A DNA stretch of 64,000 bases from Adineta ricciae (lineage: Eukaryota; Rotifera; Eurotatoria; Adinetida; Adinetidae): contig CAJNOJ010000296.1 in NCBI GenBank assembly GCA_905250025.1, positions 1 through 64,000 on the forward strand. The letters are read 5' to 3'. The first letter of the stretch is position 1, and each line of letters starts with the position of its first letter. Shown here piece after piece: positions 6,566 through 62,470 of the stretch. The notes beneath the pieces were generated by a model. It saw only the letters and a list, made by a program, of their open reading frames with translations, was not told where the DNA came from and did not search any database. A program made the translations under genes and the position numbers.

Positions 6566-6589
6566 GCTAATAAAAAAAAGGGTTTATCC

Positions 6590-14958: not shown

Positions 14959-14959
14959 N
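14959..14959. other. Single ambiguous base N: contig junction 1
   Basis: One N breaks the ABCG copy A frame on its left and a minus-strand secreted-protein gene on its right. Copy A identity with copy B (54180) ends exactly here. It behaves as a scaffold join. Confidence 0.85.
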
Positions 14960-15227
14960 CGATCGCATCGCAATAATCGTTTACTGTTAAGTCGATCAAC
15001 TTCGCATCACATTGAACAGGATAAGTTTCTCGACAAGAGCCAACTTTGAGTTGAAATTCATGTTCGGCACAACCACCACTATACTGAACTTGAATATCGA
15101 TTGTTTTGGTCTGTTTATTGTATCGAGCATCTCGAATAAACGGCATGTATTGTGCGTTTATCATTGACGAACAAAGCACAATCATTGCCAATATAACAAG
15201 AGAAAAATCCAATTGATGAAAAGCCAT
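14960..15227 (-). CDS. Small secreted protein, 3' end missing at contig junction
   Basis: Start at 15227. A signal peptide (MAFHQLDFSLVILAMIVLCS, then SMINAQ) is followed by a Cys-bearing domain with IDIQVQYSGGC, KVGSCRETYPVQC and NDYCDAI. The frame is still open when it reaches the N, so at least 89 residues are present and the C-terminus is lost. I recognise no named family; four paired-looking cysteines suggest a small disulphide-bonded extracellular domain. The truncation coincides exactly with the junction, so it reflects the assembly rather than gene decay. Confidence 0.65.
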
Positions 15228-15476
15228 GATATCGAATGATGAGAAATTACAAATGGTAATTTTTTATACTGAATTTCAGCAAACTATTTCAAATGAAGTT
15301 TTAATCCATTCCAGCTGTACAACGAGAGGCAATGCAATATATATTTTTCTTTTCTACAAGCCTACCCTATGCGTCACTATGTAATTAAACAAAATGAATC
15401 ATTGTTATAGGCGACATCTCTCTCATATACATATACTTTTTCTCTCGCTCTCTCTGCCTATATCAATTGCTATACC

Positions 15477-16172
15477 GGTACTTCTTCACTTTAAACACAG
15501 TGCAGAACAGGAAAGAGAAATTATTGGAGAGAGAGAGACAACCAATCGAATGTATAGAACGGAAAAAGAGAGATAAAACATATAGATAGACACTGTAGAT
15601 GACAGTATAATGCTGTCACAGAAATATGATTGATAAGTGATGCGTTTGATAATTGTTTAATCTTCTTATATTAATATAAAAATAAAAAGTATCTAATTAA
15701 AGAGCATAGAAAAGAAGATCAAATAATTTGTCTCATAAATGGGACATGAATATATAACGACTCATTTGCCATTTCGAAACATTAAATATATTTTTCACAA
15801 ATATCATTCTTATCGAACTTAATATTTATGATGAACATTACTTTGAATGATCTTGACACTTTAAATGTACGACGAATTCATAAGATTATGATATCAGACG
15901 AAGCTAATATTAAATTCCTACAACACCTTAAATTACTACCTGTAATTCCTAAAATAATTGAGCAATGTAATGAATTTGCAACTCATGATTGGTATTTGGC
16001 GAAACTAACACGACTAACTGACGGTAAGAAATATAAATTACAGGGAGGTCATCTACAGTGTCTATCTATATGTTTTATCTCTCTTTTTTCGTTCTATACA
16101 TTCGATTGGTCGTCTCTCTCTCCAATAATTTTTCTTACCTGTTCTGCACTGTGTCTAAAGTGAAGAAGTACC
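15477..16172. mobile_element. Non-autonomous DNA element with about 125 bp terminal inverted repeats
   Basis: 15477-15603 and 16048-16172 are inverted copies of each other, nearly perfect over about 125 bp. Ends read GGTACTTCTTCACTTTA and its complement. The interior (about 445 bp) carries a short open stretch from 15828 (frame with LPVIPKIIEQCNEF and LTDGKKYKL), which loosely recalls the zinc-binding start of ISXO2/Merlin-like transposases; this is a weak guess. No full transposase is present, so the element would depend on one elsewhere. No clear target-site duplication is seen next to the ends. Confidence 0.7.
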
Positions 16173-16732
16173 TAAATATGTACGTGTGATAGTGTGAAGA
16201 GAGAGCATCGAGAGGAGTGTTTTTCCACGCGTGTAACTTTTCATTTTCACAATAAACTAAGAAGTTCCGATAACACAAACTCACTTGTCTCTAATAATCA
16301 TACAAGCAAACAGTTTCTTGTTTGCATGCAAGCTCACAGCCGATATTTGATAATCAATATGTGCTTTATGTATGAGGGCATATGAATGAATCCAAGTTAA
16401 TCTGACTTTTCAAGAAATACTTGTCGCCAGTAGATATCAGGTTTTCAGAATTTATTTTGCCATTCAAAATAGCGCCTTTTAAATGTAAGACAGGAACTTT
16501 TAGTAACACGCAAATACAAAAAACGACGAAGATGCTATTAGAATAATGAATTTTATTTCAATTAAAGAAAAGAAAACTTATTTTTTGTTCTTAATAAAAT
16601 AGTTCTTTAATATCCTGATTAAAAAGAGCGAGTCTACTCGGAAATAGAATCTTGTCAGCGTTCAGCATATATAAATACGGCTTGCAATATAAATACTTTC
16701 ATCTATCTAACAAGAGACTTTTTTCCACAAAG
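16173..16732. other. Intergenic region before GPCR
   Basis: 560 bp of AT-rich spacer. Apart from the TATA box at its right end, no gene or repeat is recognised. Confidence 0.4.
16668..16677 (+). promoter_or_regulatory. TATA box of GPCR gene
   Basis: TATATAAATA lies 65 bases before the ATG at 16733. It lies inside a longer in-frame open stretch beginning at 16652, which argues that the upstream ATG is not used. Confidence 0.5.
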
Positions 16733-17671
16733 ATGTCGAACAGCACAAGTACAGCAAGCGATTCCTTAGTTGTTGCGTATTATCCATTCACTTTAGTCAT
16801 TGTTGGTACTTCGTTGAATATCTTAACGTTTGTTGTACTTTGTCGATCAACGTTTCGTGATACGAAAAAGCAACCAATCATTCATTACATGCGCACCATC
16901 GCGATCTTCGATATTCTGATGTTATACGGATGGAATCTCGATCATTATCTTCAAGCTGTGCACGGTTATGTCTTATTGACATACACCATTGCAACATGCA
17001 AGATTTTTGGCTTTTTGAATTATTTTGCCTGTCAATCGTCAGCTTGGTTACGAGTTTTTATCTGTCTGGATCGGTATTTATCGATCAGTCGGCTTCATCG
17101 AACATGGTTCAGTCGAGAAAAAAGTGTTTTAATCATCATTGCATCTGTCATCTCAATTCTTACTTTATTCAACTTGCATTTTCTGATTTTCACCTGTTAC
17201 TACCGACCAAGCGGGAGAATCAGTCCCAATTCTCCACTATATATTATTTATCCCTTATGGGATTATGTCAATTTAGGTGTGTACAATTTTGCACCATTTA
17301 TTCTCATGGTGACACTTAACAGTGGAGTGATTTATCATTTATATCGTCGTCACCAAACACAATTGATTCAACAATCCCGAATTAATCACCGAGCGATTTC
17401 GATTACACTGGTTATTACAACATGTCTCTTTCTGATCATGACAGTACCAGCAAACATTGCTTCTGCATTTTCTGACATACCTCCACCAATATCGGTTAAA
17501 ATTTTAGATTCATTTTTGTATACTTATCATATCTTATCGTTTCCACTTTATTTTCTCACATTTAAAGAATTCCGACAAGAATGTATTATGATGTTTACAT
17601 GTGGCAAAAATCAACATCGAGTTCGACCAACGTTGACAGCGACTCATACAGGCGCAGGTATCACTAAATAA
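16733..17671 (+). CDS. Rhodopsin-like GPCR, 312 residues
   Basis: Single exon. The start at 16733 is chosen because an upstream in-frame ATG (16652) lies before the TATA box. Seven hydrophobic segments: TM1 at YYPFTLVIVGTSLNILTFVV, TM3 ending in FICLDRYLSI (DRY box), and TM7 ending FPLYFLTFKEF, where a usual receptor has NPxxY. An N-terminal NxS/T sequon and short loops fit a class A peptide-type receptor. The ligand is unknown. It is one of five GPCR loci in the window (one of them present as two copies), and its sequence is not close to the others. Confidence 0.85.
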   Translation: MSNSTSTASDSLVVAYYPFTLVIVGTSLNILTFVVLCRSTFRDTKKQPIIHYMRTIAIFDILMLYGWNLDHYLQAVHGYVLLTYTIATCKIFGFLNYFACQSSAWLRVFICLDRYLSISRLHRTWFSREKSVLIIIASVISILTLFNLHFLIFTCYYRPSGRISPNSPLYIIYPLWDYVNLGVYNFAPFILMVTLNSGVIYHLYRRHQTQLIQQSRINHRAISITLVITTCLFLIMTVPANIASAFSDIPPPISVKILDSFLYTYHILSFPLYFLTFKEFRQECIMMFTCGKNQHRVRPTLTATHTGAGITK

Positions 17672-17996
17672 AAGCACACAAAAACAAATGTTGTCGTATC
17701 ATTCCGCCCTCCTACTCTATTTATCTGTATACCCTTTTCTTTTTTGAAAACTTGAAATAAATTATCTCAATTAATGAAGGAAGCCATGCAGAAACATGTT
17801 ACTGATATGCAATTCACTTGACACGCAAGAAAAACTAATTGATATTGAGAAAGGGGCGCGTTATAGAAAATAGAAAACAGGTTGAGAGCGACGTCTAATA
17901 AGTGACATATAAATAGTGCCTTGCACTTTAGTTGGTAAATACGTGTATGGTATTTAAAGAAGAATTACATTTCGTCAAACAAATTTTATAACGATC
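17672..17996. other. Spacer before the beta-helix array
   Basis: 325 bp containing the GPCR 3' end and the promoter of the first beta-helix gene. Nothing else is recognised. Confidence 0.4.
17908..17915 (+). promoter_or_regulatory. TATA box, first beta-helix gene
   Basis: TATAAATA, 82 bases before the ATG at 17997. Confidence 0.5.
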
Positions 17997-19550
17997 ATGC
18001 AAACAGGACTTGCTTGTTTCACTTTTCTTCTACTTTGGACTCAAACAAGTATGTGCAAAAACTTTTTATGATGAAATATAAAGTCTTCTGTATTGTTGTT
18101 ATATAGTAGCCGGTAGAACATACTATGTAACAAAATCTGGCTTGGATTCCAACGCAGGAACGAGTCAGACATCTGCTTGGTTAACAGTTCAAAAAGCAGC
18201 GAATTCGGCAACACCCGGATCCACGGTTTACATTGGTCCTGGAACATATTATGAAACGGTAACGGTCAATGTACAAGGAAATGTCCGAGATGGACTAATT
18301 ACATTCGCTAGCTTGATCTATGATAGTCCAGCAGTGATTTCTGGCAAACAGGCTAAAACAGAATCTGCTGATGGCACCATGAACATCATTTTTATTCAAG
18401 AGAAAAGCTATTTGCGCTTTGTCAATTTAGAATTAACAGATTTGAAAGCAGTAGAATGTAGTGGAGTGAGAATTACTGGCGCTGGAACCAATGTTGGTAC
18501 GTTTTGAGGTCGTCATTATCAAAAATATAGTTTTTGTTTGTAGAACTTCGAGGTTTGCATATTCACGATATTCGTGGCGGTGGACAGAGCGGCGGAGCAA
18601 TGCCAATCACGGTTTACAATAAAGATCAAACGGCAAGTCGACGACAAGTGATCGTTGATAGTTGTATACTTCATGATTGTGAGCCAGCATGGAGTGAAGC
18701 TTTGACATTCAATGGAAATATTGAAGACTTTCAAGTGACTAACAACAAAGTGTATAACATGAACAACATTGGAATCGATTTCATTGGTCTGTAGAACTCA
18801 GCCGGTTGTCAGAAATTTTATAATTTCTTTCCTTCTCTAAAGGTGGAGAAAGCTTCCTCGGTGCTCTTGGAGTGCGAAATGGTCTCTGTGCTTATAACCT
18901 CGTGTGGAATATTCACTCCGTCTATGATAGTAGTTCAGCGGGCATCTATGTTGATGGAGCATCGAATGTCACTATCGAATATAACGAAGTACACCATTCG
19001 GACATGGGGATTGAAGTTGGCGCAGAGAATAAAGGTCGAGTGGCTTCAAAGATGACTGTTCGGAATAATTATCTTCATCACAATGACAAATTTGGCTTAG
19101 CTTTTGGCGGATATGATTCTCAGTAAGTTATATTTATGCATACTCTCGTGACATGAAAATACGTGTACGTGAATACATTATAGACGTGGTCAAGTCACCA
19201 ATAGTTTATTTATGAATAATCGTCTTGTACAGAACGATGTACGTCTTACCGGTGGTGGAGAAATTTCAATTTCATTTGCTTCGGGCAATGTAGTTTATGG
19301 TAATACGATAAAACCGAACTCACAAAATGTAATTCTACTTGCCAGTCAAGAAGGTGGTTTGAATAATCAATTCGACTATCAAAAGTACTATCCGAATGGT
19401 CAAGGTGCTACAAAAGAAAGTCTTATCTTCTTTTGGGGAAACACGCAGTATGATGGTTTGACTGCCTTTCAACAGAATGCCAAACAAGAAGTGCATGCAG
19501 AACTCGGCGTTAGCAAACGTGCTTTTGGACGTAAACGCTTTTTCCTATAA
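17997..19550 (+). CDS. Secreted right-handed beta-helix protein, tandem copy 1
   Basis: Five exons: 17997-18048, 18107-18496, 18544-18786, 18843-19122 and 19184-19550, giving 443 residues. Exon 1 encodes a signal peptide (MQTGLACFTFLLLW). Exon 2 begins YYVTKSGLDSNAGT ... AWLTVQKAANSATPGSTVYIGPGTYYE, the DUF1565-type opening of bacterial parallel beta-helix (pectate-lyase-like) proteins. Later exons carry the stacked Asn/Gly-rich rungs (NNKVYNMNNIGIDFIG, NNYLHHNDKFGLAFGG). The C-terminus is basic (KRAFGRKRFFL). Likely extracellular polysaccharide binding or cleavage; the catalytic residues cannot be assigned. The exon structure is identical in the two downstream copies. Confidence 0.85.
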
Positions 19551-19878
19551 AGTTCGAATAAAATATATGTGGCGATCGCATATCACATGAAAGTGACACT
19601 GTTGTCGGAGAATGAGAAAGAAAAAATTGAAATATATAATCATCATTTCGATCTGAAGAGGCGGTGACACCGAAGCATATTTATTTATATTTGCAAAGGC
19701 ATAGTCATGAAGAGAAAACACTGGTTACTAACACTTTTATTGCCAATTTTTTCATATACTAGAGCGATGCGTGACGCACTTTGCAAAGGAAATATTTATC
19801 AGCAATGTAAACTTCTTCTGATATGTTCACGCACGATACGAGCATCTGACATCTCATTCACATTGATCATTTTCAATC
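19551..19878. other. Spacer between beta-helix copies 1 and 2
   Basis: 328 bp, homologous to 21624-22065 (shared stretches around the GAAAGAAAAAATTGAAA motif). It carries the 3' end of copy 1 and the promoter of copy 2. No gene is supported. Confidence 0.5.
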
Positions 19879-21623
19879 ATGTTTGATCGACTGCATTCCA
19901 TGTACCTAGCCACCGGTCTTTTATGGACGCAAATAAGTACGTATGCAGAAGATTTGCCTAATTGAGCATGCAACACTCTGTGCTAGTTCAATATTTAGTG
20001 AACAAAATTTCACCCAGGACGCAAGATGGAAGTAAGTGAATAAATATTGAAACATGAATACATGTTTTTTGAATATCTGATAAAATGTACCATTGAGATG
20101 TTGAACATAAAGTTTTCTGTCTGATATGACATATTCATTTTTTTTTATTTGCGAGTCTACAATAATAGTTCTCGATAGAAGGGTATCCGTTTATTACATA
20201 GTGGCGCGCAGATCGTATTATGTAATGAAATCTGGTCAAGATACAAATGCTGGAACAAGTAGAGTAACTGCTTGGTTAACGATACAAAGAGCAGCGAATT
20301 CGGCAACACCAGGTTCTACTGTCTATGTTGGTCCTGGAATTTATTATGAAACGGTTACGATTAACGTAGAAGGAAATGCTCACAATGGGCCAATTACGTT
20401 CACTAGTTTGATATCAAACAACATGCCAATTATTTCTGGTAGAGTTTCACAGAATCCATCTGCCGATGAAACATTCAATGTCATCTATATTGAAGACAAA
20501 AGCTATTTACGTTTTGTCAATTTAGAACTAACAAATTTGAGAGCGGTAGAATGTAGTGGAGTGAGAATAATCGGTCCAGGAACGAATATTGGTAGGTTTC
20601 ACGCTTATCGATATTAAAATTATCCTTTTTGTTTCTAGAACTTCGAAATTTGCACATTCACGATATCCGTGGAGGTGGCGAAAATGGTGGTGCAATGGCG
20701 ATTACTGTTTACAACACAAATCAGAACACGAGTCGACGACAAGTGATTGTTGATAATTGCACCCTGCATGATTGTGAACCAGCATGGAGTGAAGCTTTGA
20801 CATTCAATGGAAATGTTGAAGAGATTCAAGTAACGAACAACAAAGTGTATAACATGAACAACATTGGAATCGATTTCATCGGTATGACTTTTGATGATTT
20901 CTCTAATTAAAAAGTTAACTGTAACATATTACTAGCTGGAGAAAGCTGGGCCGGTACACTGGGAGTTCGAAATGCTCGATGTGCGAATAACACAGTTTGG
21001 AACATTCACTCGGTTTACGATCATAGTGCAGCTGGTATCTATGTTGATGGAGCATCGAATATCACCATAGAGCACAACGTAGTACATCATGCAGATATGG
21101 GAATTGAAATTGGTGCAGAGAATAAAGGTCGAATGGCTACAAAGGTGATTGTTCGGAATAATTATCTTCATCACAATGACAAATATGGCTTAGCTTTTGG
21201 TGGATATGATTCTCAGTAAGTTATATTCACACATATTTTGGTAGTATCAATAAATGTGTACTGATACTTTACAGATGTGGTACAGTGACAAATAGTTCAT
21301 TTACTGGCAATCATCTTGAACAGAATGATACACATCTGACTGGTGGCGGAGAAATTTCCATTTCATTTGCTTCTGGTAATATAGTGCAGCGCAATACAAT
21401 AAAGCCAAACAGACAGAACGTAATCCTAGTAGCGAGTCAAAGAGGGGGTTTGAATAATCACTTCGATTATCAAAAGTACTATCCGAACGGACGAGGTGCA
21501 ACAAAAGAAAGTCTTATCTTCTATTGGGGACATAGAGAATACCAGGGTCTCACTACATTTCAAGAGAATACAAAGCAAGAGATGCATGCACAAACCAGTG
21601 TTGGTAAACGTGCCTTGGAGTAG
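19879..21623 (+). CDS. Secreted right-handed beta-helix protein, tandem copy 2
   Basis: Five exons: 19879-19936, 20202-20591, 20639-20881, 20936-21215 and 21275-21623, giving 439 residues. The order matches copy 1: signal peptide exon (MFDRLHSMYLATGLLW), DUF1565-like opening (SYYVMKSGQDTNAGT), then beta-helix rungs. Intron 1 is unusually long (265 bp against 58 and 64 in the sisters). Exon 3, intron 3 and most of exon 4 are almost identical to copy 3, while exons 2 and 5 are clearly diverged, which suggests gene conversion. Predicted extracellular, glycan-related. Confidence 0.85.
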
Positions 21624-22065
21624 AAACATTTGTTTACATAAGTTTTGAATAAAGATATATCGTGTTTGCCAGTCACATGACAACGACAACATTGTCAGAT
21701 GGTGAAAAGGTGAGAGAAAGAAAAAATTGAAAAATCTAATCATCGTTTCAATCGATAAAGGTGACGACACGTAGTCATGATTATTTTACATTTGCAAATG
21801 CATGGTCACCAAGAAAAACATTGATTACTAATGCCTCTAATGGCATCTTTTCACAAGGTAAATTTTTCGATTTGTTTCTGATACAAAACAAAATGGATTC
21901 ATTGCGCTGGAGGCTATGCATGACACAATTTGAAAAGAAACCGTTTATGACTAAACAGTAGAAGAGGTGTAAATATTTGCCTGCACTTTCAATCGCAACC
22001 AATGTATTATATAAAAAAACGACATAAACATCTACCACCTCATTCGTATTCACGATTTTCATCAT
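21624..22065. other. Spacer between beta-helix copies 2 and 3
   Basis: 442 bp, related to the spacer after copy 1. No gene is supported. Confidence 0.5.
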
Positions 22066-23590
22066 ATGTCTTTTCAAATTCAACTTATATGTTTGATCAG
22101 TGCCCTATTATGGATGCAAATAAGTATGCACACGAACGCCTATCATATGATTGAGCTTGACATGTTTTATGTGTTTATTTTAAATAGTGGCGGGTAAATC
22201 TTACTACGTGACCAAATCTGGCAAGGATACTAATGCAGGAACTACTGAAGCCACTGCTTGGTTAACAGTTCAAAAAGCAGCGAATTCAGCAACACCTGGT
22301 TCTACTGTCTATATTGGTGCTGGTACTTATTATGAAGCTGTCACAATTAATGTTCAAGGCAATGCTCAAGACGGACCGATTACGTTCACTAGTTTGACAT
22401 CAAACAGTGCACCGATTATTTCTGGCAGAGACACAAAAAAAGCATCCGCTGATGGAACATTAAATATAATCTTTGTTCAAAATAAAAGTTACCTCCGCTT
22501 TGTCAACTTAGAATTGACAGGTTTGAAATCGACAGAATGCAGTGGAGTGAGAATTATTGGCGCTGGAACCAATGTTGGTAGGTTTTGAACCTGTCGTTAT
22601 CAAAAATATAGTTTTTGTTTGTAGAACTTCGAAATTTGCACATTCACGATATCCGTGGAGGTGGCGAAAACGGTGGTGCAATGGCGATTACTGTTTACAA
22701 CACAAATCAGAACACGAGTCGACGACAAGTGATTGTTGATAATTGCACCCTTCATGATTGTGAACCAGCATGGAGTGAAGCTTTGACATTCAATGGAAAT
22801 GTTGAAGAGATTCAAGTAACGAACAACAAAGTGTATAACATGAACAACATTGGAATCGATTTCATCGGTATGACTTTTGATGATTTCTCTAATTAAAAAG
22901 TTAACTGTAACATATTACTAGCTGGAGAAAGCTGGGCCGGTACACTGGGAGTTCGAAATGCTCGATGTGCGAATAACACAGTTTGGAACATTCACTCGGT
23001 TTACGATCATAGTGCAGCTGGTATCTATGTTGATGGAGCATCGAATATCACCATAGAAAACAATGAAGTACACCATTCAGACATGGGAATTGAAATTGGT
23101 GCAGAGAATAAAGGTCAAATAGCTACGAAGATGACTGTACGAAATAATTATCTTCATCACAATGACAAATATGGATTGGCCTTCGGTGGATATGATTCTA
23201 AGTAAATGATTTCTTAAGAGTTTCTTTTTTTGTTAATGATTAACGAAAATGAACGCCTTTAGACGTGGGCGAGTGGTGAATAGTTCATTTACTGACAATC
23301 GTCTTGAACAAAATGACAACAATCATACAGGTGGTGGAGAAATTTCGATTTCGTATGCATCTGGTAATACAGTTCTCCGAAATACTATCAAACCAAATGT
23401 TCAAAATGTGATTCTTCTGGTCGACCAAAAGGGAGGACTAAGCAATACATTAGACTATCAGAAGTATTATCCATATGGACAAGGTGCAACAGAAAAGAAT
23501 CTTATTTTCTATTGGGGTGACAATGAATACGATGGATTGAGCGCTTTTCAAAAGAAAACCAAACAGGAAGCGCATGCTCAAGTAGTTTAG
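22066..23590 (+). CDS. Secreted right-handed beta-helix protein, tandem copy 3
   Basis: Five exons: 22066-22123, 22188-22577, 22625-22867, 22922-23201 and 23263-23590, giving 432 residues. The signal peptide is MSFQIQLICLISALLW, and the DUF1565-like opening is SYYVTKSGKDTNAGT. The C-terminus is shorter and lacks the basic tail of copies 1 and 2. Intron 2 resembles that of copy 1 more than copy 2, while exon 3 to mid exon 4 is nearly identical to copy 2, so the gene is a mosaic. Its stop lies 40 bases from the stop of the convergent GH99-like gene. Confidence 0.85.
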
Positions 23591-23630
23591 AGTTTGAACA
23601 TGTTTGAAAAGTACAATTTTTTCCCAATTC

Positions 23631-25446
23631 CTAACCATTAAATATATAACTGAACCGACCATCCGGAGCAGTGTCTCCATTTTGAAAAAGACTGAGAATA
23701 TCGCCGTCATGTATCATATTATCTACCCACTTGAAATTAACCTTGATAGGAGCTGTGCTATTGAAACCTAATAACGTTCTGGGAATAGCGAATTGTAGTT
23801 CATTGTTAACAGTGACAAAAGCAATTTGTGAAACGAGTTGCCAAATCCAACCAGACTGACTTCGTTCGATAGATGCAAGTGAACCATTAATGTGACGATT
23901 AACTACGATATCAAATCCTTCCCATCCTGTCGTAAAATTTTGATCAATATCAATAAAGAGTAACATCCAGTTAGAACTATTATTCGCATTCGTCAGTGTC
24001 TTATTAGTTCGAGCATAAAAGTAAACATTGTTCATGTCTCTCGCTACTTTGACTAAGGTAATATCATTTCGACCGGTATCATCCTGGTACCGCATACTAG
24101 TGTTGTATCCAATTTCATCGCGATGTTCTACGTCATTGATATAATCAATGAATGATGGTCCAACCGTTTCCCATTGCGTAAAATCTGGTTCAATATTGAT
24201 GGTTTTTGGTTCAGTAGGTATTGGAACAGTTCGAGCGCCTTTATAACGACGAACATTGCTCACTAATTGATAATAATAAGCATCCTGATAATAATTTCCT
24301 AAGAAACCGTTGCATATTGATAACTGAATACAAATCACACTGCCTACCTTCAGGATACCCTCCGCTAACTCCACCAGCGCAAGGTTCAATATCACGACTA
24401 TGTTCCCAATCGAATTCATCGACGAACATAACTGGAAGTTTTATACTAGCGAATTCCGATAGACGCATAGCAATCCATTCATTCCAACCAGTAACAAATA
24501 CGAACTGTGGATCAATTTCTATGACACGTTCCCATTGCTCTTGCATATTCAATCCGTACGGTGTCAATGTGTTACCCGATGGAATAGTATTGTTATGAAA
24601 ACTACGTCCATGAGAACCAACTTCACTCATCGATCCCAATCGATTGCCAACGGCGTTCTGTGCGACACCCACAGTCATTTGTTCCGATATGTTTGTACTC
24701 GTTTTGTAGATATGTTGAGGATATATTTCTAGCCAACCCCATTGATTGGCACCAGTTGGTCCAGTGAAATAATCAGGCTGAGGCGTTCGAAAAGTAAAAA
24801 AATTTAAAATATCCGGACGCGTTTGAAAGGATTGTGGATTGGCAAGGATGAATGGCTTGCCTTCCCATCGAAACCACAGTTCTGAATAATAGTTTATCTT
24901 ATAAATGTTGTCGAAAAGAACTTGCACTGTTCCGAGCGGTGATCCGAAAGGTGTGAGAAATGCAACTTGCGGTGTTGATCCTCCTACTGCACGCACATCG
25001 GAAAAGGCTTGGCATATAGCTCGAAACGACTCGAGATAAACAGCAGTATTCGTGACATCGAAGAAGATAACATCAACACCAGCATTGACCAGCATTCTCG
25101 CATGTCGACGAATAACCCATTGATCGTTTGAACGATAGTAGCCAAAATAAGGTTCACCCCAGTGATGATAATGAGTCATCGGTCCCCATGCGGAATTATT
25201 TGGTTCTAACATTGCATTTGGATGAGCTGTGAGAATTTTACTGATGTCAAATGGTCCGTCAGGTGATTCAAAACCAAGCCAGAGAAAATAAAACATACCA
25301 ACGAATCGATCTGGTCGTGGTGGCGGTACTGTTTTGGGAAGAGAACGACCAAGGCCATCGGTTGCCGTCCATGTATCGCTCATCAAATCTACCGAGGCAA
25401 CAGGTCGTATCCATATTAACAACAGAAAGACAAGTAGAGATAGCAT
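23631..25446 (-). CDS. Secreted GH99/GH71-like glycoside hydrolase with CBM9-like C-terminus
   Basis: Two exons, 25446-24348 and 24298-23631, phase 1, give 588 residues. Signal peptide: MLSLLVFLLLIWIRPVAS. The catalytic part begins near GMFYFLWLGFESPDG, continues with HHWGEPYFGYYRSND and AGVDVIFFDVTN, and ends with FVFVTGWNEWIA. The acidic residues in FFDVTN and GWNEW match the general pattern of GH99-like and WbsX-type (beta/alpha)8 enzymes; the exact family is uncertain. From about residue 400 the C-terminus (DFTQWETVGPSFIDY, MLLFIDIDQNFTTGWEGFD) looks like a CBM9 or DOMON-like sugar-binding domain. Such architecture is mainly bacterial, so horizontal origin is likely. Predicted extracellular polysaccharide degradation, beside the beta-helix genes. 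Confidence 0.75.
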
Positions 25447-25591
25447 ACCTAAAATGAAAACAAATAATCATCTCGAATATAAATACGGTTACTGTGCTTC
25501 TTATCTTAGTGATAAACAAGAATGGTTTATCTTTCTTTCTGAATATTTCACATGCTAACACGAGGACGTCTTTTTTCGTTGTCCATCGATC

Positions 25592-27367: not shown

Positions 27368-28145
27368 ATATTCCTTCAACGATGCGTTTTTAAAATCTGA
27401 AAAAAAAAGAGCAAGTCCGATTGTCGAAACATTTGTTTTTTTTTTAAATAGTTGTGACAATAAAACAGTTCAATCGATCACCATGATTTTCATTGAAGTT
27501 GGAATGCGCAGATAACCGAATTAAAAAAGAACAAGATTTTCGAAAAGATGCTGGTAGACGATCTATGAAAAAGAAAATCAATGGGTCTATTCTTTCTTCT
27601 TCGTTCAGTAGAAATTTTGGTTTCCATCACACTATCGTAGTTCGTGCAAGAATGTGACATATAGTTGTGCACTGTTAATTTGTGCTGTTCACCATCAGTT
27701 GTGTGTTTACCTGAACTGATAACAGATTTCTATCCGCGAAATAAAGAATCATAAACTATAAATTGTATTACTTGAGACACGAAACAATGAACGCATTCAT
27801 GTATCGTTGGAGGTACTCTTTCAAACTTGAAAATCATATTTAAAATTATTTACAGTGATGAACACGTTCGATTTTCTATATAACATAACGATGCAAACGA
27901 GACTTGCTCTATAATAGCTGCTTTATCAATTTCTTATTTTATAAATACTCGCTAGAAAGTAGTAAGAGAGAGAGAGTATCCAAGTAAACTGTTCTCAGTT
28001 TACAAGCAGTTTATAATGTTTGCATTCAACTGATAGGGATGTGATAACAATACATGAATATTATAAAACACACTATATTTCGTTTTTCTTGCTTTAAAAC
28101 AAAGTTCTACAAACGGAGATACTCATAAGCAAAACAGTTTGTCTT
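27368..28145. other. Intergenic region, no supported gene
   Basis: About 780 bp, AT-rich, with poly-A/T runs and a short GA repeat near 27965. No tRNA, repeat pair or coding frame is recognised. Confidence 0.4.
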
Positions 28146-28589: not shown

Positions 28590-28653
28590 ATTTTTTTTTT
28601 GATCAGTCTTAGTTTATGTTGGACATGTGAGTAAGAAAAAAAGTAAAAAAGAA

Positions 28654-37615: not shown

Positions 37616-37625
37616 ATAAAATGAT

Positions 37626-41394: not shown

Positions 41395-41417
41395 TTTAAT
41401 AAAAAAAAAGTTTATCC

Positions 41418-52175: not shown

Positions 52176-52919
52176 TGATTTGATTTTGAAGTTTTCTTAG
52201 ATTAATACTTTTTTTTTGAAGACTTTCCCATCCAAGGATTTTTTATCCAGAAACAAAATATATATTCCAAACTTTTATATTTATTCAAGAACTAATACAA
52301 TATCTGTAACTTTCGGATTCGTTCATCGTTTGATTTCTCGGCCCTACACACTGTTCTCTTTTTATTCACGGATTAAATTAACCCTTTGGATCCGATGACT
52401 GTCAAAGTCGACGATAAACATATTGTAACTTTTATCAATGAAAATCTTATGACCTTAACAGAACCTCTTGCTACTGTTTCCTCATCTCTTCGAACGAGAA
52501 AGAACTCTTTTGAGTGGAAATGAAACTTTCCACGTACCTTTATCTTTTTAATGCATTATTTTCATTTGTCATTCATTCACTGCTAATTGTAAAATTGATC
52601 TGCTCGTGAATGAAAGTCGACTGACAACAAATTTATTGGTCAGAAGAATGTTATTGTTGAGATCATCGTTATGCCAATCATTAAAGTTAATTCCAAGTGG
52701 AAAACCGCGTATATCCAAATGCACGAGTGAATGTGCCCAATGATCATAAGCGACACTTCGAAACCAGTCCGGTGTCATGGGATGCGTAATTCTATTTGTT
52801 ATACAGAACGAAAGAGAAAAAAGGTAAAAGACACGTTTTCGTCGTTTTCGTTAACAAAGTCACATATAAGTAAAGAATACCGATAAGAAGCGAGTACGAA
52901 AACTTCATTTTCAGATATA
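52176..52919. other. Intergenic region, no supported gene (copy B)
   Basis: About 740 bp, counterpart of 13007-13696 with an extra stretch around 52390-52450. The inverted repeat seen in copy A (GTGGAAA/TTTCCAC) is also present here. No gene. Confidence 0.4.
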
Positions 52920-53925
52920 ATGTCAACAGATACGGGAATTTTACGTACTCCCGAATCGGCATTTAATAATCTTTTAGATTACCCATTTCGACCAAACTAT
53001 ATTGATTTAGCAAATCCAGGCTCGATCGGTAATGGCCGAACAAAATTACGTTTACATTATCTAGACGAAGGAAACAAGAATAGTCCGGAGACGATTTTAT
53101 TGTTACATGGCGAGCCAAGCTGGAGTTATTTGTATCGTCATTTCGTTCCAGCTTTAAGTCAGTATCGAGTTATTGCAGTTGATTTGATTGGATTTGGAAA
53201 ATCGGATAAACCAGTTAACAAAGAAGATTATACTTATCAAAGACATGTGGATTGGATACGAGAGTTTATTGAAAAATTGAATTTAAACAATATTACATTG
53301 TTTTGTCAGGTAACACGCTTTCCTCGTAGACGATTAATTTCAAATATCTGAAACGTAGGATTGGGGTTCTTTAATTGGATTACAATTGGTTGGAACGGAC
53401 GGAGTCGGTGATCGTTTTGCTCGAGTTGCCGTTGCTAATGGTGGATTACCTACTGGTGATGGAAAAGTTTCACAAGGTTTTCTTCAATGGCGCAATTTTG
53501 CAGCACAGCAGACAGAAATGGATGTCGGCAACGTAATCAAGTTCGGAGTGGTCAAAGACATGAAACCGGAAGAAATGGATGCGTACAATGCTCCATTTCC
53601 AAATGAGAAATATCAAGCAGGTGCTTTAATGTTTCCATTGTTAGTTCCCATCACTCCGGAGAATCCATCATCGGAATACAATCGTCAAGCATGGAAGAAT
53701 TTGAAGAATTTCCATCGACCTTTTCTAACACTTTTCTCGGATTCTGATCCGATCACAGCTGGTCTTGACAAAGCTCTGCAATCAATGATTCCAGGCACCA
53801 AAAATCAACCACATACGACAATTACCGAAGCTGGACATTTCTTACAAGAAGATAAACCACACGAAATCGTCGAACATCTGATCAAGTTTATCAAAAATAA
53901 TCCTTCAGTATCTTCACGATTATAA
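52920..53925 (+). CDS. Haloalkane dehalogenase-like alpha/beta-hydrolase (copy B)
   Basis: Exons 52920-53309 and 53359-53925 give 318 residues. The nucleophile Asp131 and Trp132 (DWGSLIGLQL), HGEPSWSYLYRHF, FSDSDPIT and AGHFLQEDKP are all unchanged from copy A. The intron sits directly before the nucleophile codon, as in copy A. Both alleles look functional. Confidence 0.85.
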
Positions 53926-54125
53926 ATATCATAAAATTCTACATCTTATGTAACCGACAAAATAAATATTGCCCTTCATCTTACATAACAACGAGAAAAA
54001 GAACACAGAACATACTGTCACCTTTCCTTTTTGCATGCTCCTCTATTCTCTTATGTAACACACCGATAACACTATTATATATACTCACATCAGGACTTTT
54101 TCTTTTATTTTTTCTGAAAGAATTT

Positions 54126-56158
54126 ATGATTAGTCAAATTTTACCTACAGACGTCGAACATGGTTCGGTACCGACACATTCAACGGATAACAGCTATGGT
54201 TCGACCATAAGTTTTCAGGCAATTAATTACGTTTTACCCCATCCGACATGCTGCAATTGTATTCCAAAACCGTGTTCGAAAATACATCAACAACAGATTC
54301 TTTACGATATATCAGGAGTGTTTAAACCAGGTATGAATGCGATTCTTGGACCGACAGGAAGTGGAAAATCGTCATTATTGGATATTCTTGCCGATCGAAA
54401 AGACCGTCACGGTCTTGAAGGACAAGTATTGATTGATGGACAAGTGCAGACATTTGATTTCAAGTATCGGGTGGGTTATGTTGTTCAAGATGATATTATC
54501 AGTGGTAACTTAACCGTGCGAGAGAATCTACTGTTCTCGGCTAATACTCGAATGTCTCGAAAAGTTTCGTCCCATGAGAAGCTGGCAATTGTTAATGAAG
54601 TTATCGAGCAATTGGGTTTGGAGAAATGTGCGAATAGGAAAGTGGGGACTGAACTACGGCGGGGAATTTCCGGTGGTGAACGAAGACGAACGAATATTGG
54701 TATGGAATTGGTACTCTCACCTCGAGTGCTCTTTTTAGATGAACCAACTACCGGGTTGGATTCATCCACAGCTCGCAATGTAATGGTATATCTGCAAAAG
54801 TTATCCAGGAAAGGCCGTATGTAGTTCTATTCATGCCATTCGATCCTCTCATTCGCTCGTGTTTAGGAACAATTATTTTCTCCATTCATCAACCACGCTA
54901 TTCAATCTTCAGATTGTTCGACACTTTGTTTCTTGTTGCTGCTGGTCGTTGTATTTACCATGGACCCAGTCAATCTGTTCTTTCATATTTTGACTCCATC
55001 GGTTTTCAATGCGAGAATCACAATAATCCTGCGGATTTTCTTCTTGATGTTTGTCAAGGTGATTATCCACTTAATCTTCCGTCGTCGAATATTCAGGAAG
55101 CTAGTGATCCTGATAAACAGGCACAGCAAATCGACCAATATTTATACGATAATTATAAAAAGTCGACCTTGTGTACGATGATCAAACAAGAAATTGCCGA
55201 GTTGGGTTCGTCGGCCAATTCTCCTGAAGCAACGACTTATGGAGCATCACAAGTGCCAAAAAAATCTCGTCTAGCCGAAGTGTTTTATGTTGCACAACGA
55301 ACGCTTCGGAATGCATTTCGAAATCCCGCATTAATCGGTATGCAAACAGGTGTCTCGATCTTTCTCGGTATACTCATCGGATTGATCTACATTCAAATGG
55401 ATCGTTCGGTCGATACGGGTGTGAAAAATCGTCTCGGTGCGATATTTTTTATTGTTACCAATCAAATCTTCGGCAGTCTCTCCGCGCTCGATCTCTTCAT
55501 CAAAGAGCGTCCACTATTTCAACACGAAAATGTCAGTGGCTACTACCATGTGTCGACATATTTTCTCGCAAAAATTCTTTGTGATATTATTCCACTACGA
55601 ACGATTCCAACAATATTCTTCTCGTCAATCGCGTATTTTATGATTGGATTCCAGAGACAAGTAACGAAGTTCTTTATATTTTTCCTGGGCATCTACATGA
55701 CTTCGCTTTGTGCCTCATCATTCTGCTTTTTAGTTTCGGCGAGTGTACGAGTTTACGGTAGGAAACATCTCCCTTTCAAATGACTTGCAATTGACGTATT
55801 CGTTTTAGCTGTGGCCAATCTACTCGCTGCCATGTATTGTGTTCTGACGTTGATTTTCAGTGGATTTCTTGTAGAAGTAACATCGGTGACGGAATTTCTT
55901 TCCTGGATTAAATGGATTAGCATCTTTCGATACTCCACGAATTTATTTTCCATTAATGAGTTTACCGATTTAAAACTGTGTTTACCAAATGATACAAATA
56001 CCTGTAACATTGATGGGTCAGAAATTTTGAAACAACAGAATATTGATGCATCGACCGACTGGGATCTCTGGAAGAATTTCGTAGCATTAGCAGGACTCAT
56101 GTTAGGTTTCCTATTTTTAACTTATATTCAGTTACTTCGCATGAAGAAAACCAAATGA
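54126..56158 (+). CDS. ABCG-type half-transporter (copy B, complete)
   Basis: Three exons, 54126-54816, 54867-55757 and 55809-56158, give 643 residues, the normal size of an ABCG half-transporter. The nucleotide-binding domain comes first: Walker A GPTGSGKSS, signature ISGGERRR, Walker B VLFLDEPTTGLD, and GRTIIFSIHQPR, which is reconstituted across intron 1. The membrane domain follows, with the first helix near NPALIGMQTGVSIFLGILIG and the final helix near the C-terminus (LAGLMLGFLFLTYIQLLRM). It should work as a dimer exporting lipids, sterols or xenobiotics (ABCG2/ABCG1 group). TATA-like sequence lies about 50 bp upstream. It follows the dehalogenase on the same strand. Confidence 0.9.
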
Positions 56159-56807
56159 ATTCTGTGTAAACTTTTTCGTAATTAGTTTTGAATTTTTACT
56201 ACGTAAATGCGATGAGATACACATAAATAAATATAAAATTGAATACAACCAAAGAAAGAAAGACATTTATATCTATCTTCAATGTCACCGTTTATCGTTT
56301 GTGTCTGAGCGTGAATTTGCCACTCTTCTGTCATGGTCTTCTTATCGATGTTTTTCTATGAGTAACTTCTCAAGCTACGTTTGAATAACACACAACCGGG
56401 GAAACATTTTTAACGCCAAAATTACCAAATAAAAAAGAAGCTTTTATTAATCTCGCTTCGTATGCCCGCATATATTTCTTACAGCTTGGTTATGTAAGTA
56501 TGGATAAAAGATTAGAAATTCGTGAGTAATATTTATAATTTCATTTGGTTTCTTCCAAACGCGAAAGTCACATCTTCTGCATAACGAAACATGATATAAG
56601 AGGATGAGAAAGAGCGACAGGTGCGTATCGTTCTAATTCTTTTATCAGAAACACAAAATAAGACGGAAAAAAGAACTAGGAAGTGACAATATACTATCTA
56701 CTCTTCGTCTTTATCTATATACGAACTAATATATAAATACGCAAGACACATCAGATTCTATTCATTCTTCTCATACAATCTGTTAATAATATTTCATTCG
56801 AATATTA
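56159..56807. other. Intergenic region before the AIG1 GTPase
   Basis: About 650 bp holding the ABCG 3' end and a TATA-type promoter. No further gene. Confidence 0.4.
56732..56739 (+). promoter_or_regulatory. TATA box, AIG1-type GTPase gene
   Basis: TATAAATA, 69 bases before the ATG at 56808. Confidence 0.5.
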
Positions 56808-57737
56808 ATGGCTGCATCCTGTGCTAATTCCAATAATAACAAAGGTGGCTCACAGATTGGCATCATTCTGTTGGGTAATACTGGTGCCGGCAAGTCGTTC
56901 TTAGGTAATATTCTACTCGGCCGTGACGCATTCAAAAATGAATGCAATCCAAACTCCGTCACACATGAAACGGAGTTTGAGACATTCGTCAATGATGATG
57001 AATCCTATGCCGTCTTCAACATTCCTGGCCTGATTGAAGGCGATCAAACTGCTATTGATCGAAACAAACGAGAAATCTACAAAGCATTTGAACAACGTCC
57101 GAATTCAGTGGTAGTTTTCATTTTCGTTGGCGGAAGTAGTGGCCGAATGCGTGATGAGGATCTCGTTGCGTTCAATGCACTTCATCAAGCATTCAAATTT
57201 AAGCCGCAATCATTAGTACTAATTGTAAATGATTTACCGCCGCGTCGATCAGAAAACTATGAAGCAACCGTGACCGTCAGTCTGGAACGTTTGTTGAAGA
57301 TCTCTAATCTCAAAGTTTGCTTTCTGGATCGAATCGACAACAAAAATCATGACGAATGCAATAGAGTTCGTACGAAATTGATTGAATTTATTATCGGTCG
57401 ATCTACGCCAGAATTACATAAGAAAGAAGGTGATATCCAGCTACATGTTGATACCATCGCCAAGTTGAAGGTGGAATCAAAGGCTGCACAAGAGAAGCTT
57501 GAAAATGAAATCAACTCTTTGAGAGATGTAATTGCTGACAAAGATCGCGAATTCAAAGCTGCAGAAGAACAACGACAAAAAGAATTCGAACACTTGAAAG
57601 ATGAAATGAAACGAAAGGATCAAAACCATTCTCAAGAGATTCAGAGTATGCAACATCGAATAAATACTCTGGAAAGTATACCGCCACAAGTTATTGTTAA
57701 GCATGTAAAAAGAAAACATTGGTGGAAGAAATTGTAG
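56808..57737 (+). CDS. AIG1/GIMAP-type GTPase with C-terminal coiled coil
   Basis: Single exon, 309 residues. The P-loop GNTGAGKSFLGN (about residues 25-36) followed by LLGRDAF is typical of AIG1 GTPases. Switch II is degenerate (FNIPGL in place of DxxG). The AIG1-specific conserved box region is FIFVGGSSGRMRDED. The guanine motif is weak (LIVNDLPP). From about residue 210 a long charged coiled coil (heptads in KVESKAAQEKLENEINSLRD) runs to a strongly basic, Trp-containing end (KRKHWWKKL), possibly a membrane contact. In animals and plants such GTPases serve immunity or membrane remodelling; its role here is not known. Confidence 0.8.
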   Translation: MAASCANSNNNKGGSQIGIILLGNTGAGKSFLGNILLGRDAFKNECNPNSVTHETEFETFVNDDESYAVFNIPGLIEGDQTAIDRNKREIYKAFEQRPNSVVVFIFVGGSSGRMRDEDLVAFNALHQAFKFKPQSLVLIVNDLPPRRSENYEATVTVSLERLLKISNLKVCFLDRIDNKNHDECNRVRTKLIEFIIGRSTPELHKKEGDIQLHVDTIAKLKVESKAAQEKLENEINSLRDVIADKDREFKAAEEQRQKEFEHLKDEMKRKDQNHSQEIQSMQHRINTLESIPPQVIVKHVKRKHWWKKL

Positions 57738-57871
57738 CACATATCAATGTGAATTATTGCCTTGAATACATTTTATAGGAAACTACTCATATGTATTATT
57801 TTATATTACTTAGTAATAAAAAAGAGGATTTATTTATAAAGATAAACACGAAAAAATATCACAGGTGTCGA

Positions 57872-59644
57872 TTAAATCTTGGTAAACCTTTGCCAAAATA
57901 CTTGATGGAAAGCCATGTCACCCAGCCAAATTTTAATCCAGTTCTCGGCTTGTTGAAGAATAAATGGAGGGAAATGGCTGTCTAGTGATGTAAAATAATT
58001 CAATATATGAAAATAACGTTCCGGAAGTCGAAAGGTGAGAGTGGATAGTTTGGGTAGGTGATCTTCAAGTAGAGGAACATTGTTTAAATCAACTGTATTG
58101 ATAACTAAGTGTTCGAGAAATGGAAAATATTGCGCGATAGTCACAATATCTTTTTTTCGGAATGCATGTGGTCCATCCGAGAGATCAAGACGTTTAAGAT
58201 GAATATTTCGCCGAATGGATGCACCACGATCAGGAATCAAATGATCGAAGTCGATTTTTAATGACTGAATGTTCACAGTGGATTGTAAAAGCAAGTTTAT
58301 TGCCTTAGTTTCCTTGTCGGAGAACGAAATAACAAGTTCTCTGATTTTCGAACAATTCACACAATTCAGTACCCATTCCACTAATCTTGAATTTAGATTG
58401 TACAAGGCGAGAAATGTGACATTCTTAAAATAATACTGTTGAGAAGACGAGTCAGGCAAGGAGGAAATGCATAGCCGTGTAATTGTATTTAAACAATAAA
58501 CATGATCATGTGAATTTTGTTTGCCTGCAGTCCACCATTGAACGACCGGGCGGTGACTGACATCAGCTCGGAAAACATCATTTCCACTGTCACATATGTC
58601 ACTGACGGTATTCTCATAGTGACCTTGCACTTCATGATCTATAACAATAATATTGAAATTCAACTTCGTCATCCAAAATGGATTGTTATATAATGTCAAT
58701 AAATTCGTGGGATAGATATTTAACTGATGTCTGGTACGAACTATACTTGTAGTCAAAGTAAAGTGCCTTAGTCGTGGTAATGATGTTTCGATTAACGTTT
58801 GCCAAGGCTCAGGCTCGAAAAATGTATCAGGCCCGTCTACTGTTAAACGATAGAGAGCAGGTGTATAGTCAAAATAGTGTCGCAATACACCGGTGGTATT
58901 GCCATTGCAAAAGTACAGGGAAAGTGCGCGTAGTTTGAGCATTGGCAGGAATTGATAATGTGTTGCTAATGGTGAGAAGAAATGATCATCTACATCGATA
59001 TTAAGACATTCCAGATGAGGGATGTATCGTGAGAAGGATACCAGTGTATTCCAGTCGCACTGTAAACCTGTGATGGTCAAGTGTTCGATGTTTAATAAAG
59101 TAGTTAATTGTGCTTTCCAAGTGGCATAGCGCTGAGGAAAAGCCAGTGATAGTCGTCGCAATGTGGTAAATGTGAATATAGTCGAAATAACGGTTATCCA
59201 CGAAGGAAAATATGATCCTTTGATCATTTTAATCGTCAACGTTTCGATTTTAGTATCGACTAATGTTAGAATAGCAGTTTGCACCGACTTTGAATTAATT
59301 CCTTGTCCACTGCAATAAATGTAAAGTGAATGAAGTCGTTCAAAAGGTGCGAATGATGGAAAACAGGCAAAAAACATATTGACTTGACCAGGTGTGTCGC
59401 GTTCAGATAAAGCTAATTTTGTTATTCTATTGGCATAATCCGGAAGAAGATGTAACGAATAACGAAACGTGTCCAAATGGCAACCAATGAAATTGAAATG
59501 AATTCGAGTCTGACTCAGCAATGCATCAAAGCGTTCATTGAGTTGATGAAGAAACACAGTAAGAAGATCGATTCCATCGATGTAATTCTCGAAAAGATCG
59601 AGTAGAATTTCGTTGGGAAGCGATTCGAGCTTTGAAAGTGTCAT
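57872..59644 (-). CDS. F-box protein with leucine-rich-like repeats
   Basis: Single exon, 590 residues, start at 59644. The N-terminus LESLPNEILLDLFENYIDGIDL is an F-box (about residues 6-45), the Skp1-binding part of an SCF ubiquitin ligase. The rest shows irregular leucine-rich spacing (LRRLSLAFP, LEHLTITGL, LECLNIDVD, LRALSLYFC, LKRLDLSDG), suggesting an LRR-like solenoid for substrate binding. No introns. Large, variable F-box families of this kind are common in invertebrates. The target is unknown. Confidence 0.75.
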   Translation of the reverse strand: MTLSKLESLPNEILLDLFENYIDGIDLLTVFLHQLNERFDALLSQTRIHFNFIGCHLDTFRYSLHLLPDYANRITKLALSERDTPGQVNMFFACFPSFAPFERLHSLYIYCSGQGINSKSVQTAILTLVDTKIETLTIKMIKGSYFPSWITVISTIFTFTTLRRLSLAFPQRYATWKAQLTTLLNIEHLTITGLQCDWNTLVSFSRYIPHLECLNIDVDDHFFSPLATHYQFLPMLKLRALSLYFCNGNTTGVLRHYFDYTPALYRLTVDGPDTFFEPEPWQTLIETSLPRLRHFTLTTSIVRTRHQLNIYPTNLLTLYNNPFWMTKLNFNIIVIDHEVQGHYENTVSDICDSGNDVFRADVSHRPVVQWWTAGKQNSHDHVYCLNTITRLCISSLPDSSSQQYYFKNVTFLALYNLNSRLVEWVLNCVNCSKIRELVISFSDKETKAINLLLQSTVNIQSLKIDFDHLIPDRGASIRRNIHLKRLDLSDGPHAFRKKDIVTIAQYFPFLEHLVINTVDLNNVPLLEDHLPKLSTLTFRLPERYFHILNYFTSLDSHFPPFILQQAENWIKIWLGDMAFHQVFWQRFTKI

Positions 59645-60406
59645 GAGCTCTCTTTATATCTTAAACTAACAAACATATTTATTTATTTTTCCTTTCCTTT
59701 TACATCAACATGCGAGTCATAACTAATTGTATACGTCACCACCCTTCATCACGCGTTTGATCATAATCCAATGTTCTAAATCATAGAATGATGTACCGAC
59801 GAACTTCAATTATTCCATGGAAAATGTTTCATGATCACCTGTATCGATATAATAGGCGAGTAATTCAGATCGTTGAATTATCACCTTGAACTCGCTATAA
59901 TCAACATCTTATTTACTTACAGCATACTTTTCATAGCCTCGGTTTTGCGAATCTGGACGCACAGCGAACGTGTCCATTTGCCTAACCGTGATTCGATATT
60001 TCGTCACGACAGCTGCTGTTTATAAACGTCGCTAATGAATAGCAATCAGTGTAAGTTGCAATGCGATAATTTAAGAAATCAGAATCAAGCACAGAACAAG
60101 CTGCGACACCTTTATCGTCAGTGATACTCATTTGGGTATCCGTATCTTCCTTCAAACGTAACGTTTTTATATGATGCTCGTCAATGTAAAAGTGTATATT
60201 TCTTTTTATACTCACAAAAAAAGCACGTGTTGTTAATTTTTTTCTCTACAGCATACAAGAATGACTCAGTCGTGTAAAAAGTGCCGCTGAGTGTTCACGA
60301 AGAGTTTGTCGAATTCGAACTGTATAATATTTCACGAGCAAAACTAGTTCTTTGCAGAATATTCGAGATGTTAACGAATAAACAATGAATGAGACCTGAA
60401 AAGTAG
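59645..60406. other. Spacer holding a decayed gene
   Basis: About 760 bp. Apart from the minus-strand remnant described separately, nothing is recognised. Confidence 0.4.
59735..60215 (-). pseudogene. Probable decayed gene, family uncertain (possibly GNAT-like)
   Basis: On the minus strand three pieces read like protein but in different frames: SITDDKGVAACSVLDSDFLN, then YRITVRQMDTFAVRPDSQNR followed by a GTAAGT donor, then an exon-like stretch with RSELLAYYIDTGDHETFSME interrupted by TAA and continuing LKFVGTSFYDLEHWIMIKRV. The VRPDSQNRGYEKYA section loosely recalls the acetyl-CoA-binding loop of GNAT acetyltransferases. The frame shift and stop suggest a pseudogene; an unrecognised intron could account for part of this. 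Confidence 0.4.
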
Positions 60407-61363
60407 TTAATAGTTGTCTTCTAATTCTGATTTAAACTCGATGACTCCTACCGCTGCATTAATGTACTGTAAAAGAGTGCACATTTGAAAGATATAATTT
60501 TCAACAAATGTTCGAAATGAAGATTTTTGCTGATATTGTGTTAAGCCATTATAACATAAAACACTTGTAATAGGTAAGGTTAATACAATTGTAGCAAATA
60601 ATTGGATGAGAAGCATGCGACACAAAAGCCATTCTTCTTTTCTCCTTCGTTGAAAGTTATTGATGATACTTGTATGAATTTTCTTGCGAAGAGACTTCAA
60701 ATTTTGAAGTGTTAAAAAGGCAAATATTGCTGTTAATAATGGCATTGATATTCCATTGATTAGTATGGAATAGAAACTCAAAAATGTCGAATATGGACCC
60801 GGTTGGTATGTACAAGTACGGTCTGTGCTATTGTAGGATATTTGAATATCATAAAAGATCAAGTCATGAACGCATACGATTGCCCAAAATAAGTAATTTA
60901 TTATTATCATTTTCCACGTCGTCGGACGGCGTAAAAACCAATGATGATTTGTTTTACTCATAAGATACCTATGCAAAAAAAGTCTTCAGTGGATTGATAG
61001 TCATATAGTTGAACGTATTCTCTACCTGTCGACAGCTGCTAATAACATGTACGATCGAGGTAGCATCAGAAATAAACCTATAGTGAAGAAACGCAATTTA
61101 CAAAACCATGACCATTGCGCAGATAGATCGATATTGAAACCAGTTTGAAGAAATCTTAGCAGAGGAACGGTGTTCAAATAAACAGCATAACAAATTGAAG
61201 AAAATATTAAATATAGTGAGCAAGGGCTTGCACGAAGTTTAGTACTACCCGAGAATACAATGACATTCAAAATTGAACCAATGTTACCAGTAATAATGAT
61301 AATAGGAATGGAAATAATAAATAGATTTTGCTGAAAACGAACTAGTTCATCTTTGGTCCACAT
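60407..61363 (-). CDS. Rhodopsin-like GPCR, 299 residues
   Basis: Two exons, 61363-61026 and 60968-60407, phase 2, joined within the DRY region (AAVD R|YLMSKTN). TM1 lies at FIISIPIIIITGNIGSILNV and has the conserved Asn of GN. TM2 is preceded by RASPCSLYLI. TM6 and TM7 lie in LFATIVLTLPITSVLCYNG and NYIFQMCTLLQYINAAVGV. The last helix has no NPxxY. The gene resembles the receptor at 34034 in overall layout, including an intron close to the DRY motif, which suggests one family. Ligand unknown. Confidence 0.8.
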
Positions 61364-61663
61364 CGTTCAGTTCAGAGGCACATGTATGTGAGCTTATATT
61401 CTCGTTTTTTACTCATTCAGCCAAGTAGATGAAAGATGAGGTGATTATCATTATCTGGATATCAAATATACAATACTTAATTAGTTCCTCTTTACCAAGA
61501 AGCACAGAGTGTATCATTCTGCGCTATTAATTAAATTCTGTCACGTATCAACTAACAATATTTATTACGTTTATTATTGACAGGTGAAGAACCGAGTAGT
61601 AACTCCCGATTCAACATTATTCACACCAGAAGAGAAAAAAAACAAGCATAGCTACGTAGGATA
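61364..61663. other. Spacer between two GPCR genes
   Basis: 300 bp, AT-rich. No feature is recognised beyond probable promoter and 3' end sequence. Confidence 0.4.
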
Positions 61664-62469
61664 TTACAGAAAAAGAGGATAGATCGCATTTGATCTCCTA
61701 CGAATTGACTTTTTGCATTCGTCTCTGTAGTATTTCGACGGTAAAACAAAGATTAGAAAAACAATCATCGGCGGAATAAATGAAAGAAAATATCCACTCA
61801 AAAATAACCAAGCATCACTTGCTGAATTCATGCATCTCGTACTATACGAAAGAATTAAACGCGGTAACGCAAGAAGGAAGAGAACCACAGGTGCAATCAA
61901 TAAATGTTGATGTCCGACGATTTCTTGACGCAGTATACCTCGGTATGATCGCTGCCTTTTCAAACGAGATTGTCGACGGGTTTGTTTAATGATCAGAATA
62001 ATAATCGAAATCAAATTAATGAGAAACGGAACGAAAAAGTGAAATGTATTCACAATTCGATTATACATCTGTACACTTGATGAATATTTAACAATACACC
62101 AGATTCTAATCATATTTTTATTATCATTGTCCTTCTCTTCAAACAAACGTCGATGAATCGCATCATGTATTGTTGTCAATGTGATAAATATCAAAAGATA
62201 GATCATCACTTTCTTGGCTACCGCTTTACTTTTTGCCTTCATAAATGTAGCACCTTGAATAGCTGTCATCGCTCTCTCCATCGACACACATGCATCCAAC
62301 CATTGGTCCATGTTCACACATATACGAAGAACGAAATCTAATGAATGACACTGAGCTTCTAACAATACTCGGTTCTGCCATGTTGATATCTGAGTCGAAA
62401 GATACACAAAATACTTCATTCCAAACAATGTCATTGTCAACAGAGTTGTGATCGATGAGCCCAACAGAT
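61664..62469 (-). CDS. Rhodopsin-like GPCR, N-terminus missing at contig junction
   Basis: The minus-strand frame is open from the N at 62470 to the stop at 61664, about 267 residues. The N-terminal tail and TM1 are absent; the first visible helix is TM2 (SSITTLLTMTLFGMKYFVYL). TM3 ends CVSMERAMTAIQG, with MER at the DRY position. TM5 is near FHFFVPFLINLISIIILI, TM6 near LLIAPVVLFLLALPRLIL, and TM7 ends FLIFVLPSKYYRDE. It is a divergent receptor. Truncation exactly at the N shows that the contig ends inside the gene. Confidence 0.75.
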
Positions 62470-62470
62470 N
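62470..62470. other. Single ambiguous base N: contig junction 2
   Basis: One N separates the truncated GPCR from the resumed ABCG gene of copy A. The base after it corresponds to 54272 in the complete ABCG gene. Confidence 0.85.

Follow-up and report, generated by a model that had tools for sequence, protein, structure and literature searches.

An apparent tandem duplication and split ABCG-like gene in Adineta ricciae, probably produced by interleaved contigs of two alleles

Introduction

The class of artefact to which the locus described here would belong is already known as false heterotype duplication, in which both alleles are retained in one assembly as if they were paralogous (PMC9516828). 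In three older vertebrate assemblies treated in that report, the same-scaffold share of false duplications was 7-24%, and in one case exons of one gene had been inserted in another (PMC9516828). The distinction matters in bdelloid rotifers, in one of which same-scaffold alleles have been read as a sign of ameiotic evolution (PMC5916493). According to Nowell et al., N gaps lie within many of the breaks in collinearity (PMC5916493), and scaffolding errors can create false palindromes (PMC7953838). Here we analyse positions 1-64000 (the window) of a 122,887-bp scaffold, C296, of the bdelloid Adineta ricciae, in which one copy of an ABCG-like transporter gene appears to be broken by a second copy of its own locus. 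C296 is almost certainly misjoined, with contigs of two alleles interleaved in the wrong order.

Results

C296 consists of six contigs (c1 to c6) separated by single Ns at 14959, 62470, 78738 and 101185 and by one run of 97 Ns, so that four of the five joins are a single N. The Ns at 14959 and 62470, where a first-pass annotation had noted that copy A stops and resumes, are the only non-ACGT bases of the window. The printed order looks wrong because the last 221 bp of c2 are identical to the first 221 bp of c4 (221/221), which lies two joins later, and because the open frame of a seven-transmembrane (7TM) receptor, truncated where c2 ends, is carried on by c4 without a change of frame, as judged from frame coordinates. 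The counterpart of this 221-bp end in c3, the contig printed next to c2, matches at 208 of 221 positions, and c3 holds both parts of the receptor within one open frame. The features concerned are listed below, with coordinates on C296 and with assignments to the two putative haplotypes, A and B.

1-14958, plus strand: contig c1, putative haplotype A; collinear with c2 34727-54180 except at 7844-8571
14959: single N joining c1 and c2, probably a wrong join
14960-62469, plus strand: contig c2, putative haplotype B, sitting between two haplotype A contigs
14960-34323, plus strand: left part of c2; putative other allele at C205:3-17667 (minus strand), 88-95% identical by block, apart from a few unmatched stretches
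34727-42720, plus strand: c2 block, putatively allelic to c1 1-7843 (91.9%)
42721-47742, plus strand: c2 segment with an FG-GAP repeat frame; 728 bp at the same place in c1
47743-54180, plus strand: c2 block, putatively allelic to c1 8572-14958 (91.5%)
53901-55783, plus strand: ABCG-like gene region of putative haplotype B, free of Ns; two open frames with ABC_tran and ABC2_membrane
54181-54271, plus strand: 91 bp of c2 without counterpart between c1 and c3
54272-62469, plus strand: c2 block, putatively allelic to c3 (54272-61822 at 90.9%, 61097-62469 at 90.0%, with an extra c3 segment between)
61667-62467, minus strand: 7TM receptor frame truncated by the c2 end and resumed in frame in c4 (C296 78739-80616, minus strand)
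62470: single N joining c2 and c3, probably a wrong join
62471-64000 in the window, plus strand: start of contig c3, putative haplotype A, which extends to C296 78737
78739-80618, 80716-101184 and 101186-122887: contigs c4, c5 and c6

Over their long shared stretches the two copies agree at 90-92% by block, with a weighted mean identity to c2 of 91.7% for c1 and 90.8% for c3, and the start of c3 (62471-64000) aligns to c2 54272-55801 without gaps at 94.9%. Matches between copies within the window span 1.5-8 kb, each with a reported E-value of 0, and chance is therefore excluded. The second copy, which the first-pass annotation had called collinear, is so in these blocks but not throughout: c2 has 5,022 bp (42721-47742) where c1 has 728 bp (7844-8571), and relative to the counterpart haplotype there is one extra segment in c2 and another in c3. 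Where copy A passes from c1 to c3, just 91 bp of c2 (54181-54271) lack a counterpart, with block matches on both sides, in agreement with the annotation. The region encoding ABC_tran and ABC2_membrane is uninterrupted in c2 but split in copy A, one part closing c1 and the other opening c3; we call the putative transporter ABCG-like from its domain order. The same annotation had both ends of c2 cutting through genes. This holds for the receptor at 62469, whose end in c2 (61667-62467, minus strand) matches the Pfam family 7tm_1 (E = 3.6e-7), but the "secreted protein" at 14960 is just a 101-residue frame (14961-15263, minus strand). A PCR from 14700 to 62700, said to yield about 0.5 kb if the insert is absent, has a computed product of 580 bp.

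On the left, the sequence of c2 points to another scaffold, C205. The start of c2 matches the right-hand contig of C205 exactly over 160 bp, and the left side of the single N at C205:17729 gives 158/160. The two sides of that N overlap at 219/221 bp, and a haplotype switch there is possible. The first base of C205 has its counterpart at 34325, which leaves 401 bp before c1 starts at 34727. Overlaps of the kind seen between c2 and c4 do occur between neighbouring contigs of this assembly, since an exact 221-bp repeat lies on both sides of a single N (C70:20747) in a fixed-position sample. Exact shared contig ends measured 121 bp in five pairs, one of them the first 121 bp of c1 and the start of c6, and 221 bp in two pairs. 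These look like k-mer overlaps, but shared ends of 34, 44, 106, 160, 182 and 192 bp were also seen.

To count copies we searched 130.46 Mb in 1,033 contigs with 47743-57000 (9.3 kb) and with an edge segment, 34049-35048; the counts are lower bounds. For 47743-57000 there are at least two copies at 90% identity or more, namely c2 itself, and c1 plus c3. For each of three 5-kb control stretches searched genome-wide, a second close copy lay on a different contig, with main blocks at 92-95%: on C311 for control L033 (main block 92%, other blocks 88-97%), on C207 for a second control (94%, with partial copies on C424 at 88-89%) and on C190 for control L030 (95%). Under degenerate tetraploidy, remoter copies would be expected beside each near allele; distant copies were found for three of the four stretches searched (for 47743-57000 these include C82 and C120 at 64-76%; for two controls they are on C48 or C12 at about 67-73% in matches of at least 300 bp), and the genome-wide search gave no distant copy of that kind for L033.

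Divergence between the copies tells the same way. Across 11 pairs of open frames the pooled Nei-Gojobori divergence was 0.128 at synonymous sites (dS) and 0.029 at nonsynonymous sites (dN), the frames running from stop to stop rather than following gene models and two of them overlapping by 77 bp. As they were picked as open frames, their freedom from internal stops is no evidence. Published values for homologues of A. ricciae average a KS of 0.135-0.14 (SD 0.036), against 1.27 for ohnologues (PMC5916493). The divergence of the copies, as estimated from these frames, is thus equal to the published allelic level, and A and B would be alleles rather than paralogues.

Farther along C296, c5 and c6 appear to carry the same misjoin fault as c1 to c4. 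They are collinear (84280-101184 with 101244-119043, at about 92%, or 87-95% by block), the last 221 bp of c5 are identical to part of the interior of c6, and the other allele of most of the c6 tail (119609-122887) begins directly after a single N on C293. All four single Ns of C296 separate blocks that we read as allelic. Homologous flanks were found at seven of nine single-N joins, eight of the nine having come from following this locus; the fixed-position sample (ten 5-kb stretches, 43,387 readable bases, 35.6% GC) held one single N, and we claim no genome-wide rate.

The c2-c4 overlap, the flank on C205, the two copies of 47743-57000 and the fault at c5 and c6 lead us to regard the printed order as not real. 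Taken with the divergence, they indicate that the apparent tandem duplication and the interruption of the ABCG-like gene are probably both artefacts of assembly. The first-pass annotation had doubted both and had proposed an allelic contig misplaced between two copy A contigs; that proposal is supported by the c2-c4 overlap, the C205 flank and the copy count, and gains further from dS and from the recurrence at c5 and c6.

Several other features of these contigs are recorded here. An FG-GAP repeat segment of about 3 kb lies at 42746-46025 in c2 and at C296 70388-73435 in c3, at differing sites and in opposite orientations. In both putative haplotypes it is inside a contig, away from Ns; in c3 a directly repeated stretch of about 1.1 kb (97-98%) flanks it, and the other copies of the FG-GAP part listed genome-wide are all at 67% or below. 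If the contigs are right, the segment is a real structural difference between the alleles. A long receptor-like open frame occurs at C296 74502-77000 and 78739-80616 (both minus strand), with relatives at 64-74% on many contigs, sometimes several per contig, which suggests a large gene family. In the left part of c2, 18083-23581 is a row of repeated units of about 1.4-1.7 kb that are 76-83% alike and are also present on C205, and 16173-16296 is an element of about 124 bp that is dispersed over many contigs, its copies being 85-98% identical. A search with TGTGGG, which we take to be a telomere-like repeat, gave 28 matches against 30 for the reversed control; the latter is the same repeat, so the search was uninformative.

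Discussion

We propose that assembly left the two alleles of the locus, about 8-9% apart, in contigs of their own, and that the scaffolder would then have interleaved these as c1(A)-c2(B)-c3(A)-c4(B)-c5-c6. For haplotype A the true path is likely to run from the reverse of C205:1-17728 over a gap of about 0.4 kb into c1, and from there across a 91-bp gap into c3; for haplotype B it likely comprises the right-hand contig of C205 at 17729, c2 and c4. Bridging evidence may have been blind to alleles this far apart, so that an allelic contig was put beside its counterpart, and joins with negative gap estimates may have been accepted and written as one N. We consider this cause reasonably probable. 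SSPACE-type scaffolders may write a single N for a negative gap. Our literature search, which included BESST, found no paper supporting identification of a scaffolder from a single N, and the published methods name none for A. ricciae (PMC7943196). In one account of long-read scaffolders, all of those listed but SMIS attempt to merge contigs that overlap (PMC8849508), and this does not speak for the one-N idea. Wrong links from chimeras formed during whole-genome amplification could also have produced the same artefact. The DNA of ARIC003 was amplified in this way (PMC7943196), which is relevant if the assembly is that of ARIC003, but C296 alone has allelic pieces on either side of four single Ns, which suggests a systematic cause. 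We tentatively allow chimeras a minor share, which is a share of the cause and not of the misjoin, and which is compatible with the interleaving of alleles.

Taken at face value, the printed scaffold would show a transporter gene broken by the second copy of a genuine tandem segmental duplication within a single chromosome, and long direct repeats are indeed present on one scaffold. We find this very improbable. If separate alleles of a duplicated locus were present, close copies should exceed two, but 47743-57000 has two. Each end of copy A coincides with the start of the scaffold or with an N, and both junctions in the window are Ns, without ungapped sequence across them. Moreover, c2 overlaps c4 exactly and not c3, the other allele of the unduplicated left part of c2 is on C205 and stops beside the position of c1, and the divergence is at the published allelic level. 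The same points count against a true head-to-tail linkage of alleles on one chromosome of an asexual rotifer, an "ameiotic" architecture of the kind described from the 2013 A. vaga assembly, in which the locus would not be divisible into haploid sets. Two tandem-linked homologous blocks described in another A. ricciae assembly (PMC5916493) lend it some precedent, but the authors of that 2018 study allow scaffolding errors for at least some of the collinearity breaks at N gaps (PMC5916493), and in C296 the interleaving is contradicted by the overlap that the end of c2 shares with c4. We regard such linkage as exceedingly improbable.

Some observations weigh against interleaved alleles or sit awkwardly with them. 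The case is built on comparison of assembled contigs, not of reads. No homology was seen between the joined ends at c1 and c2 or at c2 and c3, which leaves the acceptance of these links unexplained, and two of the nine single Ns (C205:108627 and C293:62094) lack homology between the flanks examined. The adjacency of c1 and c3, whose ends do not overlap, derives solely from homology to c2, and the right-hand contig of C205 is assigned to haplotype B by 2 differences in 160 bp. In addition, the first 310 bp of c1 are nearer to the start of c6 (289/310) than to c2 (277/310), which makes the placement of the left edge of c1 tentative. The count of two copies covers 47743-57000 rather than the whole duplicated region, and it fails at the edge segment 34049-35048, where at least four copies accompany that of the query, the segment being a repeat in its own right. 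These include copies at 93% (83544-84545) and at 88% (the start of c6); those at c1 and c6 are cut off by contig ends, and one lies at the end of C205. The open frame within it (34249-35145) has no Pfam match. This repeated 1-kb segment, which holds the missing 401 bp, may account for the contig breaks there. Finally, part of control L033 recurs on the contig that bears it (94%, about 1.1 kb) and once more on C311 (88%), and the contig of control L030 also carries an inverted, identical copy of 295 bp; close same-contig copies therefore do exist.

Though of little biological interest, the locus has modest worth as an illustration: contig overlaps within the assembly show how scaffolding can produce linkage that looks ameiotic. 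Single-N joins may offer a cheap filter for such faults, and gene counts and lists of broken genes from this assembly need checking at these joins.

Compared with described systems, the locus resembles false heterotype duplication in having both alleles on one scaffold with gaps between the copies, and differs in that the allelic contig sits between the two contigs of the other allele, splitting a gene (PMC9516828). Homologous blocks also stand in tandem on single scaffolds in ARIC00305 and ARIC00659 of A. ricciae, which come from a different assembly (PMC5916493). The 2013 assembly of A. vaga, as described in PMC5916493, likewise has alleles on one scaffold; there the arrangement is mostly inverted, 23 of 25 same-scaffold blocks being palindromic and 2 tandem, whereas in C296 it is direct.

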